Assembly: GCA_937863685.1 (NCBI GenBank)
Contig: CALMGM010000004.1
Span: forward strand, 1-64,000
DNA: 64,000 bases
Source: an uncultured bacterium
GTDB taxonomy: Bacteria; Edwardsbacteria; AC1; EtOH8
Direction: 5' to 3'
Of this stretch, positions 2,468 to 58,495 are shown in pieces; the first letter of the stretch is position 1; each line of letters begins with the position of its first letter. The position numbers and the translations under genes are program-made. The notes under the pieces were generated by a model. The model ran no database searches, was not told the DNA's origin, and saw only the letters and a program-made list of their open reading frames with translations.

Positions 2468-3046
2468 CTATCCCAGGTTCTTAAGCACCTTCTTGGCCAC
2501 TTCCTTGAGGGTCTCGAACACCCCGTAGCCCTGATGGGCCACCGATTCGAAATCCGGCACCCCCCATTTATTGAGCTGGGATCGCAGCTCGTCCACCGAG
2601 GCGATGTTGGGCAGGTCCCGCTTGTTGTACTGGATGACGAACGGTATGTTCTCTATGTTGAAGCCGTTCTCGGCCAGGTTATCCTGCAGGTTGGCGATGG
2701 ATTCCACGTTGGCATCCAGCCGCTCCACCTGGGAATCGGCCACGAATACCACCCCGTCCACCCCTTTCAGGATCAGCTTGCGGCTGGCGTTGTAGAAAAC
2801 CTGGCCCGGCACGGTGTACAGGTGGAACCGGGTCTTAAAGCCCTTGATGCTTCCCAGGTCCAGCGGCATGAAGTCGAAGAACAGGGTGCGGTCCAGCTCG
2901 GTGGCCAGGGAGATCAGCTTGCCCTTGGCGTCCGGGGCCACCTTGGAGTAGATGTACTTTATATTGGTGGTCTTGCCGCACAGCCCGCAGCCGTAGTAAA
3001 CGACCTTGCAGTTTATCTCGCGGGACGAGTAGTTGATTAAAGACAC
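2468..3046 (-). CDS. mglA: MglA-type small Ras-like GTPase
   Basis: A 192-residue GTPase of the MglA subfamily, which controls cell polarity and motility in myxobacteria and has less understood roles elsewhere. Walker A is GCGLCGKTT (residues 19-27), the switch II region reads TVPGQ (78-82) where Ras has DxxG, and the base-specificity motif is NKRD (141-144). The segment [17 protein letters not shown] is typical of MglA. The start is GTG at 3044-3046 with GGAGG at a good distance. It lies 15 bases after its likely GAP partner, the Roadblock protein at 3062-3559, and is the last gene of what seems to be a por-mglB-mglA operon. Confidence 0.93.
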
Positions 3047-3061
3047 TACAATTCCTCCCGC

Positions 3062-4514: not shown

Positions 4515-4535
4515 TTTATATTATCCTTGTAATAA

Positions 4536-4570
4536 AATTCTAAATTCAGAATTCAATAATTCTGTATTCT
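4536..4570. repeat. Degenerate heptamer repeats between porA and porB
   Basis: Five imperfect 7-base units (ATTCTAA, ATTCAGA, ATTCAAT, AATTCTG, TATTCTT) fill the gap between porA and porB. They match the ATTCTGA array found inside hypE and at the pyrC start. Confidence 0.6.
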
Positions 4571-10917: not shown

Positions 10918-11925
10918 TCAGCAGATCCTTGGCAGAGCCTCGCCCTCCAGCATCATCAACGGCCGTCTGCTGCCCAGAAAGGTGGTCAGCAGCACCTGGG
11001 GCTTGCCGGCTTCGACCTTTCCTATTATGGCCGCATTCTTGCCCAGCGAATCTTGGCGCATGGCTTTCAGGATGCCTTCGGCATCCCCGCCGGTCACGAT
11101 GGCGATCAGCTTGCCCTCGTTGGCCACATACAATGGGTCCAGGCCAAGCATCTCGCAGGCGCCTTTGACCTCCGGGTTGACCGGTATTTTGTCCTCTTCT
11201 ATGACAATTGTGATTTTGGACTGCAGAGCTATTTCGTTGAGGGTGGTGGCCAGGCCGCCCCGGGTGGGGTCGCGTAATACGTGGATGCTCCCGGCCTTCA
11301 GCAACGATGACACCAGCCCATTAAGGGGAGCCACATCGCTAAAAAGATTGCCGCTCAGGCCGAAATTGTTCCGGGCATTGATCACCGCCGCACCGTGGTC
11401 TCCCACCGAACCGCTGATTATCACCGCGTCCCCCGGTGCGGCTAAAGCCCCGGAGACATTGACACCCTCGGGTATCTCTCCCACACCGGCCGTGTTGATG
11501 AACAGGCCGTCACAGGCCCCCTTGTCCACCACCTTGGTGTCCCCGGTGACAATTGAAACACCGGTTTCCTTGGCGGCAGCCGACATAGAATCGACCACCT
11601 TCTCCAGGGTTTCAAGAGGAAGCCCCTCTTCGATGATAAAGCCAACCGAAAGGTATAGCGGCCTTGCCCCCTTCATGGCCAGGTCGTTGACCGTGCCGCA
11701 GACCGCCAGTCGCCCGATGTCCCCGCCCGGGAAGAACAGCGGCTTGACCACATAGCTATCGGTAGTGAATGCCATTCTGAATTCTGAATTCTGAATTCTG
11801 AATTCTACAGCGTCGTCCCCTTGCGTCAGCATAGCATTGGAGAAGCGGCTTTTGAAGACCTTCTCTATCAGCTCGTGGGAAAGACGCCCTCCGGAGCCGT
11901 GAGCCAGCAGTATTTTATTAGACAC
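10918..11925 (-). CDS. hypE: Hydrogenase maturation factor HypE
   Basis: A 335-residue AIR-synthase-fold protein that turns the carbamoyl group on its C-terminal Cys into the cyanide ligand of the [NiFe] site. The C-terminus is the required PRIC. Other marks are LAHGSGGR near the N-terminus, AFTTDSYVVKPLFFPGGDIG, and DPTRGGLATTLNEIA. The start is taken as GTG at 11923-11925 (VSNKILLAHGSGG) because the family starts there; the frame stays open to 12072 but overlaps hypD. No good ribosome site precedes it. Residues about 40-51 (EFRIQNSEFR) are encoded by four perfect ATTCTGA heptamers, an in-frame repeat insertion in a surface loop just before the AFTTDSYVV strand. Confidence 0.92.
   Translation of the reverse strand: MSNKILLAHGSGGRLSHELIEKVFKSRFSNAMLTQGDDAVEFRIQNSEFRMAFTTDSYVVKPLFFPGGDIGRLAVCGTVNDLAMKGARPLYLSVGFIIEEGLPLETLEKVVDSMSAAAKETGVSIVTGDTKVVDKGACDGLFINTAGVGEIPEGVNVSGALAAPGDAVIISGSVGDHGAAVINARNNFGLSGNLFSDVAPLNGLVSSLLKAGSIHVLRDPTRGGLATTLNEIALQSKITIVIEEDKIPVNPEVKGACEMLGLDPLYVANEGKLIAIVTGGDAEGILKAMRQDSLGKNAAIIGKVEAGKPQVLLTTFLGSRRPLMMLEGEALPRIC
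11774..11806. repeat. Heptamer array ATTCTGA inside hypE
   Basis: Four perfect tandem copies of ATTCTGA (11774-11801) and a partial fifth. Read in the hypE direction it has no stop codons; read in the other direction it would. Confidence 0.9.
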
Positions 11926-11930
11926 ACTCA

Positions 11931-11961
11931 AAATATTTGATATTTGATTATTTAATATTTT
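11931..11961. repeat. Degenerate heptamers at the hypD/hypE junction
   Basis: Units of the type CAAATAT / AAATAAT / AAATATT on the minus strand fill the gap between the hypD stop codon and the hypE start. They reach into the hypD stop and may explain the missing ribosome site of hypE. Confidence 0.5.
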
Positions 11962-13063
11962 AGTTCCCCGCCCCGTACTTGTACCAGGCCGCGCAGGCCC
12001 CCTCGGAGGACACCATGCACGGCCCCACCGGGCTCTCCGGCGTACATTTTTTCCCAAACATCGGGCATTCATCCGGCTGGTGCAGTCCCATCATCACCTG
12101 ACCGCAGATGCAGCCCTGGGGCTCGATTGCCGGCTCCACCTTGATGTCAAATCGTCTTGAAGCATCAAATGCGCTGTATTCTTCCCTGAAGCAAAGCCCG
12201 GTGTCAGGGATATTGCCGATGGCCCGCCACTCGGCGGTGCAGGCTTTGGTCACTTTATCCAGCATGGCCAGGGCATGGGGATTCCCGGCATCGGGCACGC
12301 CCCGGCGGTATTCCGTCTGCACCGTGAAAGCCAAGCCACCTTTTTTGTGGGCCCGGGTCTGTTCCAGAAGCATCACCAGCGATTCCAGAATGTCCAGCGG
12401 CTCGAACCCGGCGATGACACAGGGGATCTGGTATTGAGCCGGAATGAATTGATACGGCCGGACGCCGATGATGGCCGAAACATGGCCCGGGCAAAGGAAC
12501 CCGTCTATCTTGGTCTGGCCCGATTCCAGTATGGCCTTCAGGGCACGGGGCACGGTCTTGAAGGCCGGATAGACCGAAAAATTATCGATCCCCTTTTCTT
12601 TTGCCTCCAGCACCGTGGCGATGATGGTGGGCGAGGTGGTCTCGAAGCCCACTCCGGCAAAGACCACCTGCTTTTGCGGGTTCTCGGCCGCAATCTGAAG
12701 AGCGTCCAGCGGAGAGTACAATATCCTGACATCGGACCCCTGGGACTTGGCCTCCCGCAGGCTGCTGTGCGAACCCGGCACCCGGACCATGTCCCCGAAG
12801 GTGGTAAAGATAACGTCCTTCAGCCCGGCGATGGCTATCATCCTGTCTATGTCGGACAGGGCGGTGACGCACACCGGGCAACCAGGGCCCGACAGCAGCT
12901 TTATGGACTTGGGGATCAGCCCCCTGATGCCGAACTGGGAGATGGCCATGGTATGGGTGCCGCAGACCTCCATGAAGGCCGCCGAACCATCGCAAAGGGC
13001 TTCGATCCTCTTGACCAGCTTTGCGGCCACCGTCGGATCGCGGAATTTATCAAGATCCATCAT
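11960..13063 (-). CDS. hypD: Hydrogenase maturation factor HypD
   Basis: A 367-residue [4Fe-4S] scaffold that, with HypC, assembles the Fe(CN)2CO unit. Visible motifs: EVCGTHTMAI (CGTHT), GPGCPVCVT, the GFETTSP loop, and a C-terminal cysteine set (CICGQVMMG, CPMFGKKC, GPCMVSSEGAC) that ligates the cluster. ATG codons at 13061-13063 and 13058-13060 are both possible starts. It lies 12 bases after hypC. Confidence 0.95.
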   Translation of the reverse strand: MMDLDKFRDPTVAAKLVKRIEALCDGSAAFMEVCGTHTMAISQFGIRGLIPKSIKLLSGPGCPVCVTALSDIDRMIAIAGLKDVIFTTFGDMVRVPGSHSSLREAKSQGSDVRILYSPLDALQIAAENPQKQVVFAGVGFETTSPTIIATVLEAKEKGIDNFSVYPAFKTVPRALKAILESGQTKIDGFLCPGHVSAIIGVRPYQFIPAQYQIPCVIAGFEPLDILESLVMLLEQTRAHKKGGLAFTVQTEYRRGVPDAGNPHALAMLDKVTKACTAEWRAIGNIPDTGLCFREEYSAFDASRRFDIKVEPAIEPQGCICGQVMMGLHQPDECPMFGKKCTPESPVGPCMVSSEGACAAWYKYGAGN

Positions 13064-13311: not shown

Positions 13312-15663
13312 TTACTGGTTATTTATCCCGACAGAAAGCACCTGTCCCAATGCAATACCGCCATCGTTTGCCGGCACCTGACGGTGTACAAGCACTTGAT
13401 AATTTTTTCTTAAAAGCCCCTGTTTGATGCTGTTTAAAAGATATCTGTTCTGGAAGACCCCGCCGGACAGGGCAACAGTATTGATACCGGTTTTTGACCT
13501 CGAATTATCGCACATCAGCAAAGTAAAGTCAACGATTGTGTTATGAAACTTGTCCGAACAGATGCCGGAATTCGCCCCTTCCAAAACATCCTCCGTTAAC
13601 TGCCGCCACATCCTTTTGATTGATATTGCCAGCATCCCTTTTTCTTCAATAACATCATATTCATATCTTTCATTGATCCCCAAAGCCAGGCAATTCTCCA
13701 GGGCCATGGCCGCCTGGGCCTCAAAAGTGATGCTCCGGCAGACGCCCAACATGGCGCTGACCGCATCGAACAATCTGCCCAGACTGGATGTCCAGACCAG
13801 GTTAAAGTCGCTCTCCAGTTGTTTTGCTATCACCTCCGCCTCCGTTTGACTATCCTTGGGCATCAGGTTCACGGGAAGCTGGTTGAGAAGATACTGGCTG
13901 TAGGCGGCAGCGATCCGATAAGGCTTTTTGATGGAGGCCTCTCCGCCCGGCAGTGGAAGATATTCCAAATGGCCCGTTCGTTCGATATTTTTGCCGTCGA
14001 AGACAAAGAACTCCCCGCCCCATATTTTTCCATCTTCGCCGTAGCCGGTGCCGTCGAAAGCCACGCCGATAGCCGGGATGCCCTTTCCGTTATCGGCCAA
14101 CGTGCTTAGGATGTGTGCCTTATGATGCTGGACTGCGCACAGGGTTCCCCCGCTCTGTTCCCGGGCCCACTTGGTGGTAAGGTAATCGGAGTGCAGGTCG
14201 TGAACGATAATTTCCGGTTTTATCTTGAACCACTTCTGGTATTTATCCACCATTTCTTCGAAAAAGGACAGGGAAGCGGTATTGTCCATCTCGCCGATAT
14301 ACTGGCTGACATATGCCTTGTCACCCGATGCCAGACAAAAAACGTTCTTCATTTCCCCGCCCACCGCCAGGGTGGGAGGCACCGGGGCCGGGAGAATGAT
14401 GGGGTTGGGAGCGTAGCCCCGGGAATGACGGATTATCTGAATACGGGATGATTTCTCGGACTGCTGGTCTCTCTGTTTTTTTTGATCTTTGATCTTTGAT
14501 CTTTGATCTTCATCATCGGCCACAAACACAATGGAATCATCGTTGCGATTCTCGATATCCCTGTCGTTCAGAAGGAAATGATCGGCGATGCCCGACAGTT
14601 TATCCAAAGCCTCCCGGTTCCTGATAACGACCGGTTCATCCTGGATATTGCCCGAAGTCATCACTAATACCACGAATCCGTTGGATATTTTTCTCAGATC
14701 TTTGAATAAAAGATGATGCACCGGGGCATAGGCCAGCATCACGCCCAAGTAGTTGTTCCCCGGAGCCACATGATCGGATATCTTTGATATTTTATTTTTA
14801 ACTTTTAACTTTGCCAAAAGCACTATCGGCGCCTGGCTGGATCCCAGGACCTTTGCTTCCCGATCGTTCACTTCGCAGATGACCCGGATATCTTCCAGGG
14901 ACCCGCACATCAGGGCCAGCGGCTTGTCCGGCCGGTTCTTTCTGCCGCGGAGTCTTGCGACCGCAGCATCATTGCCGGCATCGCAGGCCAGATGGAAACC
15001 GCCGACACCCTTGATGGCGACTATCCGGCCATCCAAGATGGCCTTTGCCGCGCTTTTTATGGCATCGGTATTTTCTGCGACTGTTTTTCCGTCGTTGTCA
15101 TCAAGCCATATCTTGGGCCCGCATACCGAACAGGCGTTGGGCTGGGCGTGGAAGCGGCGATTCTCCGGGTCGTCGTATTCCTTTTGACAAGCGGGACACA
15201 TGGAAAAGGCCGACATGGTGGTCTGGGGCCGGTCATAGGGAGTGTTTTTGATGATGGAAAATCTGGGGCCGCAGTTGGTGCAGTTAATGAAGGAATATTC
15301 GTGGCGGCGATCATTCGGATCCAGCATCTCCGTCCGGCAGTCATCGCATAAAGCGATGTCCGGAGATATACGGGTAATACCGTCGACATCCAGGCTCTCT
15401 TTGATGACAAAGGTCTCATGGTTTTCAGATTCGATCGGAGAAATGGACATATCGTCGATCACCGCTTGGGGAGGGAGTTCGCGAGGAATGTCCGACAAGA
15501 GGGCATCCACATCGCCGGGCTGCCCTTGCACCAACAGCTCCACTCCCCGGCTGGAATTGAGCACCCAGCCGGCAAGCCGGTGTTTTTTGGCCAGCCGGTA
15601 TATGAAGGGTCGGAACCCCACCCCTTGGACGATGCCGTTAATTTTTACTTTTACTGCTTTCAT
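13312..15663 (-). CDS. hypF: Carbamoyltransferase HypF
   Basis: A 783-residue HypF that makes the carbamoyl group for HypE from carbamoyl phosphate and ATP. Domains in order: acylphosphatase (GIVQGVGFRPFIYRLA, residues 10-25), two zinc fingers (CDDC 106-109, CTNC 128-131, CPAC 156-159, CSVC 178-181), a YrdC-like domain (about 200-370) and a Kae1-like domain to the C-terminus (VQHHKAH, ALSGGVFQNRYLL). Two heptamer arrays lie inside: TTTGATC x4 coding for residues about 386-395 (DQRSKIKDQ) in the YrdC/Kae1 linker, and a degenerate AT-rich one at about 284-295. Both keep the frame. No hydrogenase structural gene, hypA or hypB is in the window. Confidence 0.94.
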   Translation of the reverse strand: MKAVKVKINGIVQGVGFRPFIYRLAKKHRLAGWVLNSSRGVELLVQGQPGDVDALLSDIPRELPPQAVIDDMSISPIESENHETFVIKESLDVDGITRISPDIALCDDCRTEMLDPNDRRHEYSFINCTNCGPRFSIIKNTPYDRPQTTMSAFSMCPACQKEYDDPENRRFHAQPNACSVCGPKIWLDDNDGKTVAENTDAIKSAAKAILDGRIVAIKGVGGFHLACDAGNDAAVARLRGRKNRPDKPLALMCGSLEDIRVICEVNDREAKVLGSSQAPIVLLAKLKVKNKISKISDHVAPGNNYLGVMLAYAPVHHLLFKDLRKISNGFVVLVMTSGNIQDEPVVIRNREALDKLSGIADHFLLNDRDIENRNDDSIVFVADDEDQRSKIKDQKKQRDQQSEKSSRIQIIRHSRGYAPNPIILPAPVPPTLAVGGEMKNVFCLASGDKAYVSQYIGEMDNTASLSFFEEMVDKYQKWFKIKPEIIVHDLHSDYLTTKWAREQSGGTLCAVQHHKAHILSTLADNGKGIPAIGVAFDGTGYGEDGKIWGGEFFVFDGKNIERTGHLEYLPLPGGEASIKKPYRIAAAYSQYLLNQLPVNLMPKDSQTEAEVIAKQLESDFNLVWTSSLGRLFDAVSAMLGVCRSITFEAQAAMALENCLALGINERYEYDVIEEKGMLAISIKRMWRQLTEDVLEGANSGICSDKFHNTIVDFTLLMCDNSRSKTGINTVALSGGVFQNRYLLNSIKQGLLRKNYQVLVHRQVPANDGGIALGQVLSVGINNQ
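14481..14508. repeat. Heptamer array TTTGATC inside hypF
   Basis: Four perfect tandem copies of TTTGATC. In the hypF direction they read GATCAAA, which has no stop in any phase and codes for DQRSKIK. Confidence 0.9.
14780..14814. repeat. Degenerate AT-rich heptamers inside hypF
   Basis: Units TATCTTT, GATATTT, TATTTTT, AACTTTT and AACTTTG. In hypF they encode the Lys/Ile-rich segment LAKLKVKNKISKIS, at odds with the surrounding composition. Confidence 0.6.
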
Positions 15664-30952: not shown

Positions 30953-31945
30953 CTAAAAATGTTTAAATCCCCTATCGGGAACCTTAAAAGTCTTGAGATC
31001 TCTCCCTATCATCTTGACCCCATGGCCCCTGACAACTTGACCGATGACGGAACAGGGCGTTCCGGCCCGGCCTAAAATGGTCCTGGCCTCTACCGCCTGC
31101 CTGGCAGGCAGGGTGAAGAGCAGTTCGTATTCCTCGCCGCTGTACAGACAATATTCCAGGGGATCTTTTTTGAGGATATTGGCCGCAGTGACGGCCTCCT
31201 CGGCCACCGGCAAGGCGCCTTGGTCTATGATTATCCCCACCCGGCTCTCCCGGGCAAGATGATGAAGCTCCGAAGCCAGACCGTCCGAGATGTCTATCAT
31301 GCCGTGCAGTCTGAATTTTGCTGCCAGCAGCTGGGCTTCTTTGACCCTGGTCTCTGGCTGCAGATGTTTCTTGGTCAGTTTTGCATTTTGATTTTTAAAT
31401 TTTGAATTTAATATCTCCAGCCCCGCCTGCGACGACCCCAAAGATCCGGTGACCAGCACCGCGTCCCCGGCTTTGGCTCCGGAGCGGAGTCCGATGTTAT
31501 TTTTTCTGGCTTTGCCGTAAACCGCTATGGTCAGCGACAACTCCCGGCCCGCCACGGTATCCCCGCCGCATACCGCCACCACGTGTTGTTTCGCCAGCCT
31601 CGCCATCCCGGCGTATATCTTCTCAATATCTTTAATCTTGATACCTTGGGGAATGGTAATGGACACCACTGCCAATACCGGTCTGCCGCCCATGGCGGCA
31701 ATATCGGAAAGATTGGCCGCCAGGGCCTTGTGTCCCAAATTCTCAAACGAGGTATAAGAAAGATCAAAGTGGACATTATCCACCAGAGTGTCGATGGTCA
31801 GCAGTCCGGCCCGGGTCTTGTCTAAAGCAAAGACCGCCGCATCATCCCCTATCCCGGCGATGATGTCCTTGTTCACGGTTTGATATCTCTTTTTTAAGAT
31901 ATCGATGAGCCCGAACTCGTTTAATCCGGACCGGTTTCTCTTCAT
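30953..31945 (-). CDS. thiL: Thiamine-monophosphate kinase
   Basis: A 330-residue ThiL of the AIR-synthase fold that phosphorylates thiamine monophosphate to the cofactor TPP, which PorAB needs. Seen: LIDILKKRYQ, GIGDDAAVF, LLTIDTLVDNVHFDL, ALAANLSDIAAMGGRP, GGDTVAG and DISDGLASELHHLA. Residues about 178-189 (ILNSKFKNQNAKL) come from an AT-rich heptamer array (31379-31413) that sits between conserved blocks and keeps the frame. Its ATG overlaps the stop of the upstream nitrilase gene by 4 bases. Confidence 0.93.
   Translation of the reverse strand: MKRNRSGLNEFGLIDILKKRYQTVNKDIIAGIGDDAAVFALDKTRAGLLTIDTLVDNVHFDLSYTSFENLGHKALAANLSDIAAMGGRPVLAVVSITIPQGIKIKDIEKIYAGMARLAKQHVVAVCGGDTVAGRELSLTIAVYGKARKNNIGLRSGAKAGDAVLVTGSLGSSQAGLEILNSKFKNQNAKLTKKHLQPETRVKEAQLLAAKFRLHGMIDISDGLASELHHLARESRVGIIIDQGALPVAEEAVTAANILKKDPLEYCLYSGEEYELLFTLPARQAVEARTILGRAGTPCSVIGQVVRGHGVKMIGRDLKTFKVPDRGFKHF
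31379..31413. repeat. Heptamer array inside thiL
   Basis: Five imperfect units TTTTGCA, TTTTGAT, TTTTAAA, TTTTGAA and TTTAATA. They code in thiL for the Asn/Lys-rich stretch NSKFKNQNAKL. Confidence 0.75.
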
Positions 31946-37937: not shown

Positions 37938-39230
37938 CTAGATCTTTATTTGTTGCCCGTTCACTATGGTCATAACCGCCTTGCCTTTAAGCTTGTATCC
38001 CTTGAACGGAGTATTCCTGCTTTTGGATTTAAACTTTGTCGGATCCACTTCCCATTCGGCCTTGGGGTCAAATATGGTCAGGTTAGCCTGGGCTTTGGGC
38101 TCCACTGGGTTTTGGATCTTTAATATTCTGGCCGGGTTCACGGCCATCTTCTCCACCAGTTGTGAGGCCGTTAAAATGTTCTTTTCCACCAGGTAGGTCC
38201 AGCAGAGACCCAGCGATGTCTCCAGCCCCAGCATGCCGCAAGGGGCCTGGTCGAATTCGACCTCCTTCTCCTCGGAAGAATGTGGGGCGTGATCGGTGAC
38301 TATGCAGTCGATGGTGCCGTCCTTAAGAGCGTCGATAATGGTCATCACGTCGGCTTTGCTGCGCAGCGGCGGGTTCACCCGCATCATGGAATCGTAGCCG
38401 ATCACCGCCTCCTCGCTTAGTATGAAATACTGGGGGCAGGTCTCGGCAGTCACCTTGATCCCGGCCCGCTTGGCCCGGCGGATGATATCCACCGTCTCGG
38501 CGCAGGAAACGTGGGCGATATGAACCCGCCCCCCGGTCAGGTCGGCCAGCATAACGTCCCGGGCGGCCATGGCGGCCTCCGCGGCATTGGGGATCCCCCG
38601 CAAACCCAGCTTGGTGGCCAGGGCCCCCTCATTCATGGCCCCGTCGGCCGACAGGAATTTGTCCTCGCAATGAGAGATCACCGGGATATCGAACATCCGG
38701 CAGTAATCCAGGGCCCGGCGCATCAGGTTGGAGTTGGTCACCGGCTTGCCGTCATCGGAGATGCCTACCGCACCGGATTGATACATGTCGCCGATTTCAG
38801 CCAGTTCCTCACCCAACGATCCTTTGGTGATGGCTCCTACCGGATAGACCCGGCATTCGGGAATCTGACGAGATTTTATGAACTGCACCAGCCCCTGGCT
38901 GTCTATCACCGGCTGAGTATTGGGCATGCAAGCGATGGCGGTGAAGCCGCCAGCCGCCGCGGCCCGGGAGCCGGAGGCGATGGTCTCCTCGTCCTCCCGG
39001 CCCGGTTCGCGCAGATGAACATGCATGTCCACCAGGCCGGGAAATACATATTTGCCCTTGAGGTCGATGACCTCGGCCTTGGCGTCTTCTATCTTAGCCT
39101 CGATCTTGGCGATCAGGCCGTCCTCGATCAGGATGTCCAGCACCTCATCCCTTCGGTTCTGGGGATCGATCACCCTGCCGCCTTTGACAAGAATTCTGGA
39201 TTCTGAATTCTGAATTCTGGAATTACTCAT
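37938..39230 (-). CDS. pyrC: Dihydroorotase
   Basis: A 430-residue dihydroorotase of the larger class, closing the pyrimidine ring. Zinc ligands DMHVHLREPG (HxH), a later VISHCEDK, HIAHVSCAET, and the catalytic VTDHAPHS are all present. The N-terminus is odd: MSNSRIQNSESRILVKGGRVIDP. Residues 4-13 are encoded by four ATTCTG(A/G) heptamers placed directly after the start codon, ahead of the normal start of the family (ILVKGGRVIDP). It ends the pyrR-pyrB-pyrC operon, 2 bases after pyrB. Confidence 0.94.
   Translation of the reverse strand: MSNSRIQNSESRILVKGGRVIDPQNRRDEVLDILIEDGLIAKIEAKIEDAKAEVIDLKGKYVFPGLVDMHVHLREPGREDEETIASGSRAAAAGGFTAIACMPNTQPVIDSQGLVQFIKSRQIPECRVYPVGAITKGSLGEELAEIGDMYQSGAVGISDDGKPVTNSNLMRRALDYCRMFDIPVISHCEDKFLSADGAMNEGALATKLGLRGIPNAAEAAMAARDVMLADLTGGRVHIAHVSCAETVDIIRRAKRAGIKVTAETCPQYFILSEEAVIGYDSMMRVNPPLRSKADVMTIIDALKDGTIDCIVTDHAPHSSEEKEVEFDQAPCGMLGLETSLGLCWTYLVEKNILTASQLVEKMAVNPARILKIQNPVEPKAQANLTIFDPKAEWEVDPTKFKSKSRNTPFKGYKLKGKAVMTIVNGQQIKI
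39193..39220. repeat. Heptamer array at the pyrC start
   Basis: Units ATTCTGG, ATTCTGA, ATTCTGA and ATTCTGG just inside the pyrC start codon (39228-39230), encoding SRIQNSESRI. Confidence 0.85.
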
Positions 39231-39232
39231 TG

Positions 39233-40186
39233 TTATGCCTCCTTCTTTATGGCTTCGGCCAGCGGAGCGTCACCGCCCGACAGCAGATAAAGCACCGCCA
39301 TTCTTACGGCCACCCCGTTGGTCACCTGATCAAGAATAACCGATTGTTCGCCGTCGGCCACATCGGGGTCTATCTCGACCCCCCGGTTCATGGGTCCGGG
39401 ATGCATGATGGTCACATCCTTTTTGGCCTTGGCCATCCGTTCCTTGTCCAGGCAGAATTGCAGGGAATATTCCCGCAGCGATGGCAGCAGGCCCTTCTTT
39501 TGGCGTTCCAATTGGAGCCGCAGAACGTTGATCACGTCGGCCTGGGGAATAGCCTCGTCCAGATTGTAATATACTTTGACCCCCAGTTGTTCGATCCCGA
39601 CCGGGACTAAAGTGGAGGGGCCGCAAACCGATACCTTGGCGCCCATTTTAATCAGCCCGTTGATATTGGACCGGGCCACCCGGGAGTGGGTGATATCACC
39701 CACTATCAGCACGTTAAGGCCTTCGAATCCGCCCCGTCTTTCCTTGATGGTAAACATATCCAGCAGGCCCTGGGTGGGATGGGCATGCTGCCCGTCGCCG
39801 GCGTTGATCACCCCGGCTTTGATGCGACTGGCCAAAAAATGCGGGGCGCCGGAGGAAGAGTGCCGCATCACCACCAGGTCGATCTTCATGGCTTCAAGAT
39901 TGCGCGCCGTATCCAGCAGGGTCTCCCCCTTCTGGACGGCCGAGGTTTTGGGCGAGATGTTGACCGTATCGGCCATCAGCCGTTTGGCGGCCATGTCGAA
40001 GGAGGCCGAGGTCCGGGTGGAGGGTTCGAAGAACATGTTGACGATGGTCTTGCCCCTGAGGATGGGCACCTTTTTGATGGGCCGGTTGAGCACCTCCCGG
40101 AAGCTCTTGGCGGTGTCCAGGATCATGCTCATTTCCTCGGACGACAGCGACTCCAGGTCCAGCAGGTCTTTTTTATTCCACTTCAT
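39233..40186 (-). CDS. pyrB: Aspartate carbamoyltransferase catalytic subunit
   Basis: A 317-residue ATCase catalytic chain, joining carbamoyl phosphate and aspartate. The phosphate-binding STRTS is at 56-60; [25 protein letters not shown] and [13 protein letters not shown] are also seen. No regulatory chain pyrI is nearby, as in organisms that control the pathway with PyrR. It overlaps the end of pyrR by 14 bases. Confidence 0.95.
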
Positions 40187-57049: not shown

Positions 57050-58495
57050 TTAATTTGAACGCTGATCATAGGGGCACCTGGCTCCCACCCACCGCATGGC
57101 CTCGTTCAGCAAGGAATCCCTGGCGTTCTGCTCTGGGTGATCCAGCACATGCTCCAATAGATGCCTTAAGATCATTCCTACCTCCGGACCGGGCTTAAGA
57201 TGGAACTCGGCCATTATATCCTCTCCGTCCACCTCCAGATCGTTGATAGTGAACGGTGAGTTTTTGTTTATCACCTCTGTAATGGCCTGCTCGAATAGGT
57301 CCAGGTCCCGGTCGGCTTCTTCGGTGCCGCGCCCCTGAGCTTTGATATCAGCCCTCCGCAACTCTATCAGGTCATATACCCCCTTTGTCCCGACCTTGGA
57401 GATCAGCCTTCGCAGGCCTTTTTCTGTCTCAGGGAAAGCGAACATGTGGCGGCGCACCATCATGGATACCCGGGCTATGACATCGCCTGAATATTTCAGC
57501 CGTTCCAGCACCTCTTTAACGATCTTCTCCCCCAATTTATCGTGTCCGTAAAAATGCGCCCCGCCCTCGAAGGCCTCCCGGCACTGAGGTTTGGCAATAT
57601 CATGGAACAGGGCCGATAGCCGCATCTCCAAGATATTTGGCACATAGTCAACAGATCTTATGGAATGCTCAAAAACCTTGTGGCGATGATAGCCCCCCGG
57701 CTGGGTGACATCCACCCCGGCCTCCAGCTCCGGCAGCAGCTCCTTTAAAAGACCGCTGCGTTGCATCAACCACAACCCAATGGACGGCTGGTCAGCCTTC
57801 AGCAGCATCTTGTTCAACTCCTGCTGGATCCTTTCCGGAGAGACGGACCTGATGAGCCGGGCACTCTTTTTGATGGCCTTAAAGGTCCCCTGCTCGATGG
57901 AGAACTGAAATCGGGCGGCAAACTGGCAGGCTCGCAACATCCTTAAAGGGTCCTCCTGGAAGGCCCGGGGATTTACCATCCTGATCAGACGGTCCTTGAT
58001 GTCCTGAACCCCGTTATAAGGATCTATTATCTCGGGATTTTGAATTTTGAATTTTGAATTTTGAATTCGCAATGCTATCGCATTGGCGGTGAAATCCCTC
58101 CGCCCCAGATCCTGCTCCACCGGCAGATCGGGATCGAACTCTATCTCGAAATCGCGGTGCCCCAATCCGATGCTGGTCTCGCGGCGAGGCAAGGCGATAT
58201 CCACGGTCTTCGATTTGAAATTTGCAATATGCAATTTAAATTTTATCACTCCGAACGATCTTCCCACCTGCTGCACTTGTCCAAACTGTTTAAGATCGGA
58301 GATCAGCGCATCAATGGGCATCCCGGTGACCAAGTAATCCACCTCCTCCGAGGGAAATGACCAGAACTTGTGAGGGTCGATCCGGCCGGTGCCCAGTGAT
58401 AAGGCATAACGGATCCGGTCGCGCACCGCACCGCCCACCTCGTAGATCTGGCCGATGGAGTTGACGGAGTCAATTATTTTATCAGACAGATGCAT
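57050..58495 (-). CDS. cca: CCA-adding tRNA nucleotidyltransferase / poly(A) polymerase family, with HD domain
   Basis: A 481-residue class II nucleotidyltransferase. Head: YEVGGAVRDR, then EEVDYLVTG (metal carboxylates), RRDFTANAIAL, and DRLIRMVNPRAFQEDPLRMLRACQFAARF. A C-terminal HD domain has LFHDIAKP. It matures or repairs tRNA 3' ends. Two heptamer arrays lie inside: residues about 144-153 (RIQNSKFKIQ), right after the RRDFTANAIAL block, and about 83-95 (KFKLHIANFKSK). Both keep the frame. A promoter ends 6 bases before the ATG, so its mRNA may have no leader. Confidence 0.9.
   Translation of the reverse strand: MHLSDKIIDSVNSIGQIYEVGGAVRDRIRYALSLGTGRIDPHKFWSFPSEEVDYLVTGMPIDALISDLKQFGQVQQVGRSFGVIKFKLHIANFKSKTVDIALPRRETSIGLGHRDFEIEFDPDLPVEQDLGRRDFTANAIALRIQNSKFKIQNPEIIDPYNGVQDIKDRLIRMVNPRAFQEDPLRMLRACQFAARFQFSIEQGTFKAIKKSARLIRSVSPERIQQELNKMLLKADQPSIGLWLMQRSGLLKELLPELEAGVDVTQPGGYHRHKVFEHSIRSVDYVPNILEMRLSALFHDIAKPQCREAFEGGAHFYGHDKLGEKIVKEVLERLKYSGDVIARVSMMVRRHMFAFPETEKGLRRLISKVGTKGVYDLIELRRADIKAQGRGTEEADRDLDLFEQAITEVINKNSPFTINDLEVDGEDIMAEFHLKPGPEVGMILRHLLEHVLDHPEQNARDSLLNEAMRWVGARCPYDQRSN
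58037..58067. repeat. Heptamer array ATTTTGA inside cca
   Basis: Four perfect tandem copies of ATTTTGA plus a partial fifth. In cca they read TCAAAAT and encode RIQNSKFKIQN. Confidence 0.9.
58213..58247. repeat. Second, degenerate heptamer array inside cca
   Basis: Units ATTTGAA, ATTTGCA, ATATGCA, ATTTAAA and TTTTATC, encoding IKFKLHIANFKS. Confidence 0.7.

Follow-up and report, generated by a model that had tools for sequence, protein, structure and literature searches.

Heptanucleotide tracts at fixed sites and of constant length in core genes of Candidatus Edwardsbacteria

Heptanucleotide repeats in other bacteria

In many bacteria no class of long simple repeat is more abundant than the heptanucleotides, and the contact length of the polymerase has been proposed as a reason for this abundance (Mrazek 2007, cited by PMC4679880 and PMC4692102). 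Among the closest described systems, the STRR heptanucleotides of heterocystous cyanobacteria, and specifically those in the P6b stem of Nostoc trnL, resemble the tracts of Candidatus Edwardsbacteria described here in having 7-base units at a fixed site, and the heptamer class of P6b has been replaced repeatedly, with motif class TDNGATT or NNTGAGT exchanged as a block between lineages, as also happens in Edwardsbacteria (PMC4476775). The P6b repeats, however, occupy a non-coding intron stem-loop and vary in length (PMC4476775), whereas the Edwardsbacteria tracts lie in coding loops of core genes, at constant length, in one orientation and in an unrelated phylum. The G-rich heptamers of Xanthomonas and Nostoc (GGGAATC) are likewise dispersed over the genome, mostly in about four units, and often recur, with altered sequence, at loci shared by related species, but they are mainly intergenic, show extensive length variation and are under-represented on ORF coding strands (PMC4692102). 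Those of Edwardsbacteria, on the other hand, are A-rich, located in genes, always sense and constant in length.

A third point of comparison is the TAACTGA direct repeat of marine Beggiatoaceae, also a heptamer, for which it has already been argued that genes tolerate it one way round only (PMC4679880). It is a single invariant unit, mostly intergenic and just upstream of start codons, with its in-gene copies mostly at protein ends (PMC4679880), while Edwardsbacteria carry numerous units that replace one another at fixed sites. A TAACTGA unit set directly 5' of start codons is not what Edwardsbacteria show, since their units differ and most of their tracts are in genes.

Length change is the mutation normally expected of in-gene tandem repeats. 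The simple sequence repeats of contingency loci, which are involved in phase variation, are similar in that they are in-gene tandem repeats with units not divisible by three, but the Edwardsbacteria tracts reside in housekeeping rather than surface-variation genes, and the 7- or 14-bp differences that frame switching by copy number would produce were not seen from one species to another. Copy-number variation between relatives, typical of STRR and LSSR, was also absent from the in-gene pairs. A unit of 7 in an essential gene means that a length change breaks the frame, and the ten species offer a natural set of sites at which units are replaced while length stays constant. Homogenisation without length change can thus be told apart from slippage, and the long-standing puzzle of the bacterial preference for heptanucleotides becomes testable. 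The literature searched held no example of units that switch at fixed length within core protein genes.

Tracts in the window and at matching sites across the family

The window, a stretch of 64,000 nucleotides, belongs to a genome of 2.72 Mb in 14 contigs, which was scanned as sampled stretches and by whole-genome pattern searches; together with nine further Candidatus Edwardsbacteria it forms the family set of ten genomes. All window features given here are on the minus strand. The ATTCTGA array reported in a preliminary description of this DNA was recovered as a perfect run of 33 bp (4.7 units; sense unit TCAGAAT / AGAATTC) at 11774-11806, on the same strand as the gene for the hydrogenase maturation protein HypE (hypE, 10918-11919; PDB matches 3vti, 2z1t and 2i6r), the ORF of which is open as far as 12072. 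The same description placed like arrays in hypF, cca, thiL, pyrC and two gaps; perfect arrays are indeed present in hypF, cca and pyrC, while those in thiL and the gaps are imperfect. In hypF (carbamoyltransferase HypF, 13312-15663, named from sequence and gene neighbourhood), a perfect tract with the sense unit GATCAAA (TTTGATC) at 14481-14510 lies inside a loop of 16-17 residues that is missing from the aligned G002 and G003 proteins, and a second, degenerate tract at 14773-14817 includes a perfect 17 bp of TTTTAAC (14796-14812). The tRNA nucleotidyltransferase / poly(A) polymerase family gene cca (57050-58495; PDB matches to 3wfo and others), for which orthologues were aligned, contains a perfect tract at 58037-58067 (sense unit TCAAAAT / AAAATTC; ATTTTGA) and a degenerate period-7 tract at 58200-58248 detected by the motif-free scan. 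The tract of thiL (thiamine-monophosphate kinase, a HypE relative, 30953-31945) is degenerate, located at about 31374-31416 (also delimited as 31379-31409), and its orthologues carry other heptamers. That of pyrC (dihydroorotase, 37938-39230, adjoining pyrB) lies at the N-terminus (39184-39234) and includes a perfect 20 bp of ATTCTGA at 39200-39219; the names thiL and pyrC, like hypF, were read from sequence. Degenerate tracts are further found 5' of the coding part of hypE, adjoining hypD (about 11931-11967, also delimited as 11933-11960), and in the gap at 4534-4562 between two putative 2-oxoacid:ferredoxin oxidoreductase subunit genes.

That the heptamer arrays are genuine and greatly exceed chance expectation was confirmed at several scales. 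Four period-7 runs with at least 20 consecutive lag matches occurred in 464 kb of the window's genome; a dinucleotide-Markov control had none, and other periods gave 0-1. The window is richer than the remainder of the genome, as a 400-kb sample of contig 5 contained only one array of at least 30 bp. A motif-free scan of 840 kb from five family genomes returned 42 period-7 tracts versus 1-9 at control lags, and a pattern search of all ten genomes at least 80 matches versus 8 in the control. The tracts are dispersed over many genome loci and are not mostly intergenic (25 in coding sequence and 17 in intergenic regions in the motif-free scan), yet their per-base density is higher intergenically. 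Three copies of AATTCAG were present in 6 of the 10 family genomes and in 2 of 376 other genomes, the arrays checked in these two being apparently intergenic according to a gene caller trained on the Edwardsbacteria family; CAGAANG (3.7 copies) occurred in G008 and in one genome outside the family. Tract-bearing genes identified by Pfam (where tested) or PDB include cca (PDB match), guaA, asd, leuS, dusB, coaE and moeA, and sequence reading adds tmk, ftsY, lpxK and nuoC. Since cca, tmk, leuS, guaA and asd are generally essential in bacteria, loss of frame would usually be lethal for many of these genes.

Separately, gaps in a genome of another bacterial family (G234, locus L187 near 1500 and 2090) hold mixed heptamer runs, with AATTCAG units followed by long CTCCTGA/CTCCTGC heptamers. 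In G002 (L249, 1501-1690), three A-rich tracts with AAAAAGC/AAAAACC units lie near the C-terminus of one long protein and are probably its lysine/alanine-rich tail.

In protein-guided family alignments, the hypE, cca, thiL, hypF and pyrC loops have period-7 DNA in species of several genera, tracts of asd and guaA are at matching sites over several genera as well, and arrays from independent pattern matches in different species fell at matching positions of orthologous genes. A first lag test for concerted change was biased, its sites having been picked because a single member was periodic there, and gave way to a test on unselected orthologues and a random-placement null. Orthologues not used to pick sites had a lag-7 identity of 0.59, compared to 0.25 in the flanks at lag 7, 0.20-0.36 at lags 3-6 and 8-13, and 0.54 at lag 14. 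All 9 readable hypE sequences were of identical length, G005 being set aside because part of its locus (L025) is masked with N and the tract region falls within that part. Because relatives across several genera carry period-7 DNA at matching sites, an observation that the preliminary description itself named as a refutation, the proposal of a recent invasion by clean insertion fails, and the tracts give the impression of old sequence rewritten again and again at its site, not of new insertions.

Comparison of lengths points in the same direction. An empty site in relatives together with a filled site longer by the element was not observed in the alignments of hypE, cca, asd, guaA and hemW. 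In hemW the tract is found in genus 4 only, where it covers conserved TEF.RQK..G codons with zero length change, and the same residues are encoded by ordinary codons in the other genera. To say that the array interrupts hypE was too strong, as the tract forms a beta-hairpin turn between strands 23-26 and 33-41 (AlphaFold model, mean pLDDT 92.8) and exceeds its counterpart in most other phyla by just 2-4 residues. Length gain also occurs at some sites, namely in hypE, in guaA (2 residues more than the outgroup loop) and in hypF, whose loop, with 16-17 additional residues, was the sole case longer by about an element among the six genes compared (hypE, cca, asd, guaA, hemW and hypF). A recently spreading heptanucleotide element that inserts cleanly and survives only in the stop-free orientation would be consistent with the absolute orientation in genes and with the sharing of one unit by several loci, such as AGAATTC in hypE, pyrC and tmk of G000. 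Such an element is nonetheless very improbable and appears largely refuted by the family alignments, given sites common across genera, perfect arrays with no clean empty sites, the in-place origin in hemW and the forward orientation even of units that are stop-free both ways.

Unit switching at constant length and its possible mechanism

Across the family, the tracts keep their site, length, period of 7 and orientation while their units change in concert. The asd tract is present in nine species and takes the form of at least five distinct units, including AGAATTC (G003), AAAATTC (G001 and G006), AAAAATC (G002) and AAAATGC (G005), the remaining species being periodic but different. Matching columns of cca contain AAAATTC in G000, four copies of AGAATTC in G001 and four of AAACTGC in G006, and guaA carries AAAATGC (four copies) in genus 2, AGAATTC (four copies) and AGAAGGC (three copies) in genus 4 and no tract in genus 1. 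Tract length was equal in 115 of about 127 informative in-gene orthologue pairs between species and none differed by 7, 14 or 21 bp. At eight loci, identical changes in adjacent units (7-base register) numbered 208, compared to 52.3 +/- 6.9 under random placement (2000 trials, maximum 78). As pairs within one locus share history, both sets of counts stand for a pattern and not for independent events.

Units within an array had an identity of 0.81, against 0.65 for one locus across species and 0.55 for different loci, so that units are alike within arrays beyond what independent change between species would give, as in concerted evolution. Different loci were no more alike within one species than between species (0.547 vs 0.551, permutation p = 0.59). 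The shared spreading mechanism suggested in the preliminary description, taken as one source for the whole genome, finds no support in this result, conversion genome-wide from a common unit pool is unsupported, and local copying is favoured over a genome-wide donor pool.

From these patterns we infer both a copying mechanism and a selective reason for the orientation. The tracts are probably old, persistent features of surface loops, chain ends and operon gaps that are kept periodic by local templated copying between units. A nascent strand would slip by one unit, copy the neighbour and realign (transient misalignment), or alternatively a slip would be compensated by a counter-slip, and a point change in one unit would thereby be copied into the next without net change in length. 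Within genes, selection would remove gains or losses of 7 or 14 bp as frameshifts and would keep the purine-rich orientation, in which all frames encode a hydrophilic peptide free of stops. Position, length and the 7-base period would thus be retained over time while the unit changes species by species. The CARAANN unit class is common to many loci, and this sharing still needs a reason, such as a compositional or seed bias. Literature searches on transient-misalignment homogenisation and on Edwardsbacteria repeats yielded nothing useful.

Plain slippage, with expansion and contraction by whole units and survival only of variants in the original frame (net 0 or 21 bp), would fit the predominance of heptanucleotides among long simple repeats in many bacteria, for which polymerase slippage has been proposed in the corresponding passages of PMC4679880 and PMC4692102. 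It would, however, require one-unit intermediates that break cca, tmk, leuS, guaA and asd and should leave the 21-bp variants that are missing from the orthologue pairs, which makes it quite unlikely. Ectopic overwriting, in which short single strands from one tract anneal elsewhere through microhomology and overwrite an equally long segment, would allow tracts to spread genome-wide without insertion, and both the in-place appearance in hemW without length change and the presence of one broad unit class at many loci fit this process. Harms and colleagues (2016, listed among the references of PMC8116780) are said to have described short-segment substitutions of this kind in Acinetobacter baylyi. 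Yet a common donor pool predicts units shared across the loci of a species, contrary to the permutation result, and one locus across species is more alike than other loci of the same genome; overwriting from elsewhere is therefore an unlikely, though not negligible, source of the tracts. For annotation, the tracts are a warning that loop peptides such as IQNSEFR, IQNSKFK and KIKNQKS reflect turnover at the DNA level and not conserved protein function.

Orientation in genes and gaps

For arrays of the class (ARAMNNC)x3.5 in the ten genomes, with genes called by a hexamer model trained on the sample, the A-rich strand was the sense strand in all 47 in-gene cases, which represent about 25 distinct gene sites with orthologues of one site included, and none was reversed, an absence that partly reflects the definition of a working gene since a gene broken by a reversed array would look intergenic. 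The motif-free scan gave 25:0 in the same direction. The earlier observation that in-gene arrays all lie one way round thus extends to the family, and the underlying arithmetic, by which every forward frame of a 7-base array encodes the same cyclic heptapeptide, stop-free for TCAGAAT, TCAAAAT and GATCAAA and meeting a TGA on the opposite strand, is correct for those units. Stop avoidance as the sole cause did not hold up. CARAANN units are stop-free forward whatever the N, and when reversed they meet a TGA only with T as the final N, so CARAAN[G/C/A] units are stop-free in both orientations. Fifteen of the 47 arrays, in about nine genes, could be reversed without a stop and yet none is, and avoiding stops is therefore insufficient. 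The encoded peptides have a Kyte-Doolittle mean of -1.95 forward (hydrophilic) and +1.63 reversed (hydrophobic), and hydrophilic sense can explain the in-gene orientation that stop avoidance leaves over.

Perhaps selection on the loops simply favours hydrophilic peptides of K/N/Q/E/S, with the DNA period of 7 as a by-product. The hydrophilic peptides and the hairpin turn of hypE, where checked, would agree with such selection, but a period of 7 nt, and not 3 or 21, rotates the codon frame from unit to unit, is present in non-coding gaps too, and comes with identical nucleotide changes that recur in units read in different frames, so that protein selection alone is hardly probable at all. Synonymous recoding that keeps the peptide while destroying the DNA period was not seen in the orthologues.

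A weaker skew is also found in co-directional gaps, at 22:6 (some N-terminal coding sequence included) and 13:3 in the motif-free scan, and selection at the protein level is not an explanation there. A more far-reaching possibility, which we regard as doubtful, is that length-neutral copying in a 7-nt register acts continually on coding DNA of this lineage, converting ordinary codons of essential genes into tracts and exchanging their units as a whole. The preferred strand would then depend on transcription direction, with the operon gaps skewed as well, and not on protein selection alone.

Some tracts contain a further sequence. A palindrome-like element of 19-24 bp, CCTTCGnnnnCGCTCAGGG, after which CAAG usually comes, lies in frame within heptamer tracts; every distinct copy was found inside such a tract, and in coding sequence it is always sense. 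It occurs in thiL of four species (L056, L058, L063 and L064; 24 bp), in hypF (L077), in lpxK (L199, near 1105), in L264 near 6757 and, as a variant, in asd (L305). In the gene of a ygiQ-like radical SAM protein, a comparison of L204 (about 2944-3050) with L257 shows about 105 additional in-frame bases within the heptamer tract of G000; they contain palindromic sequence of the TGTCCTGAGC type and are absent from G002.
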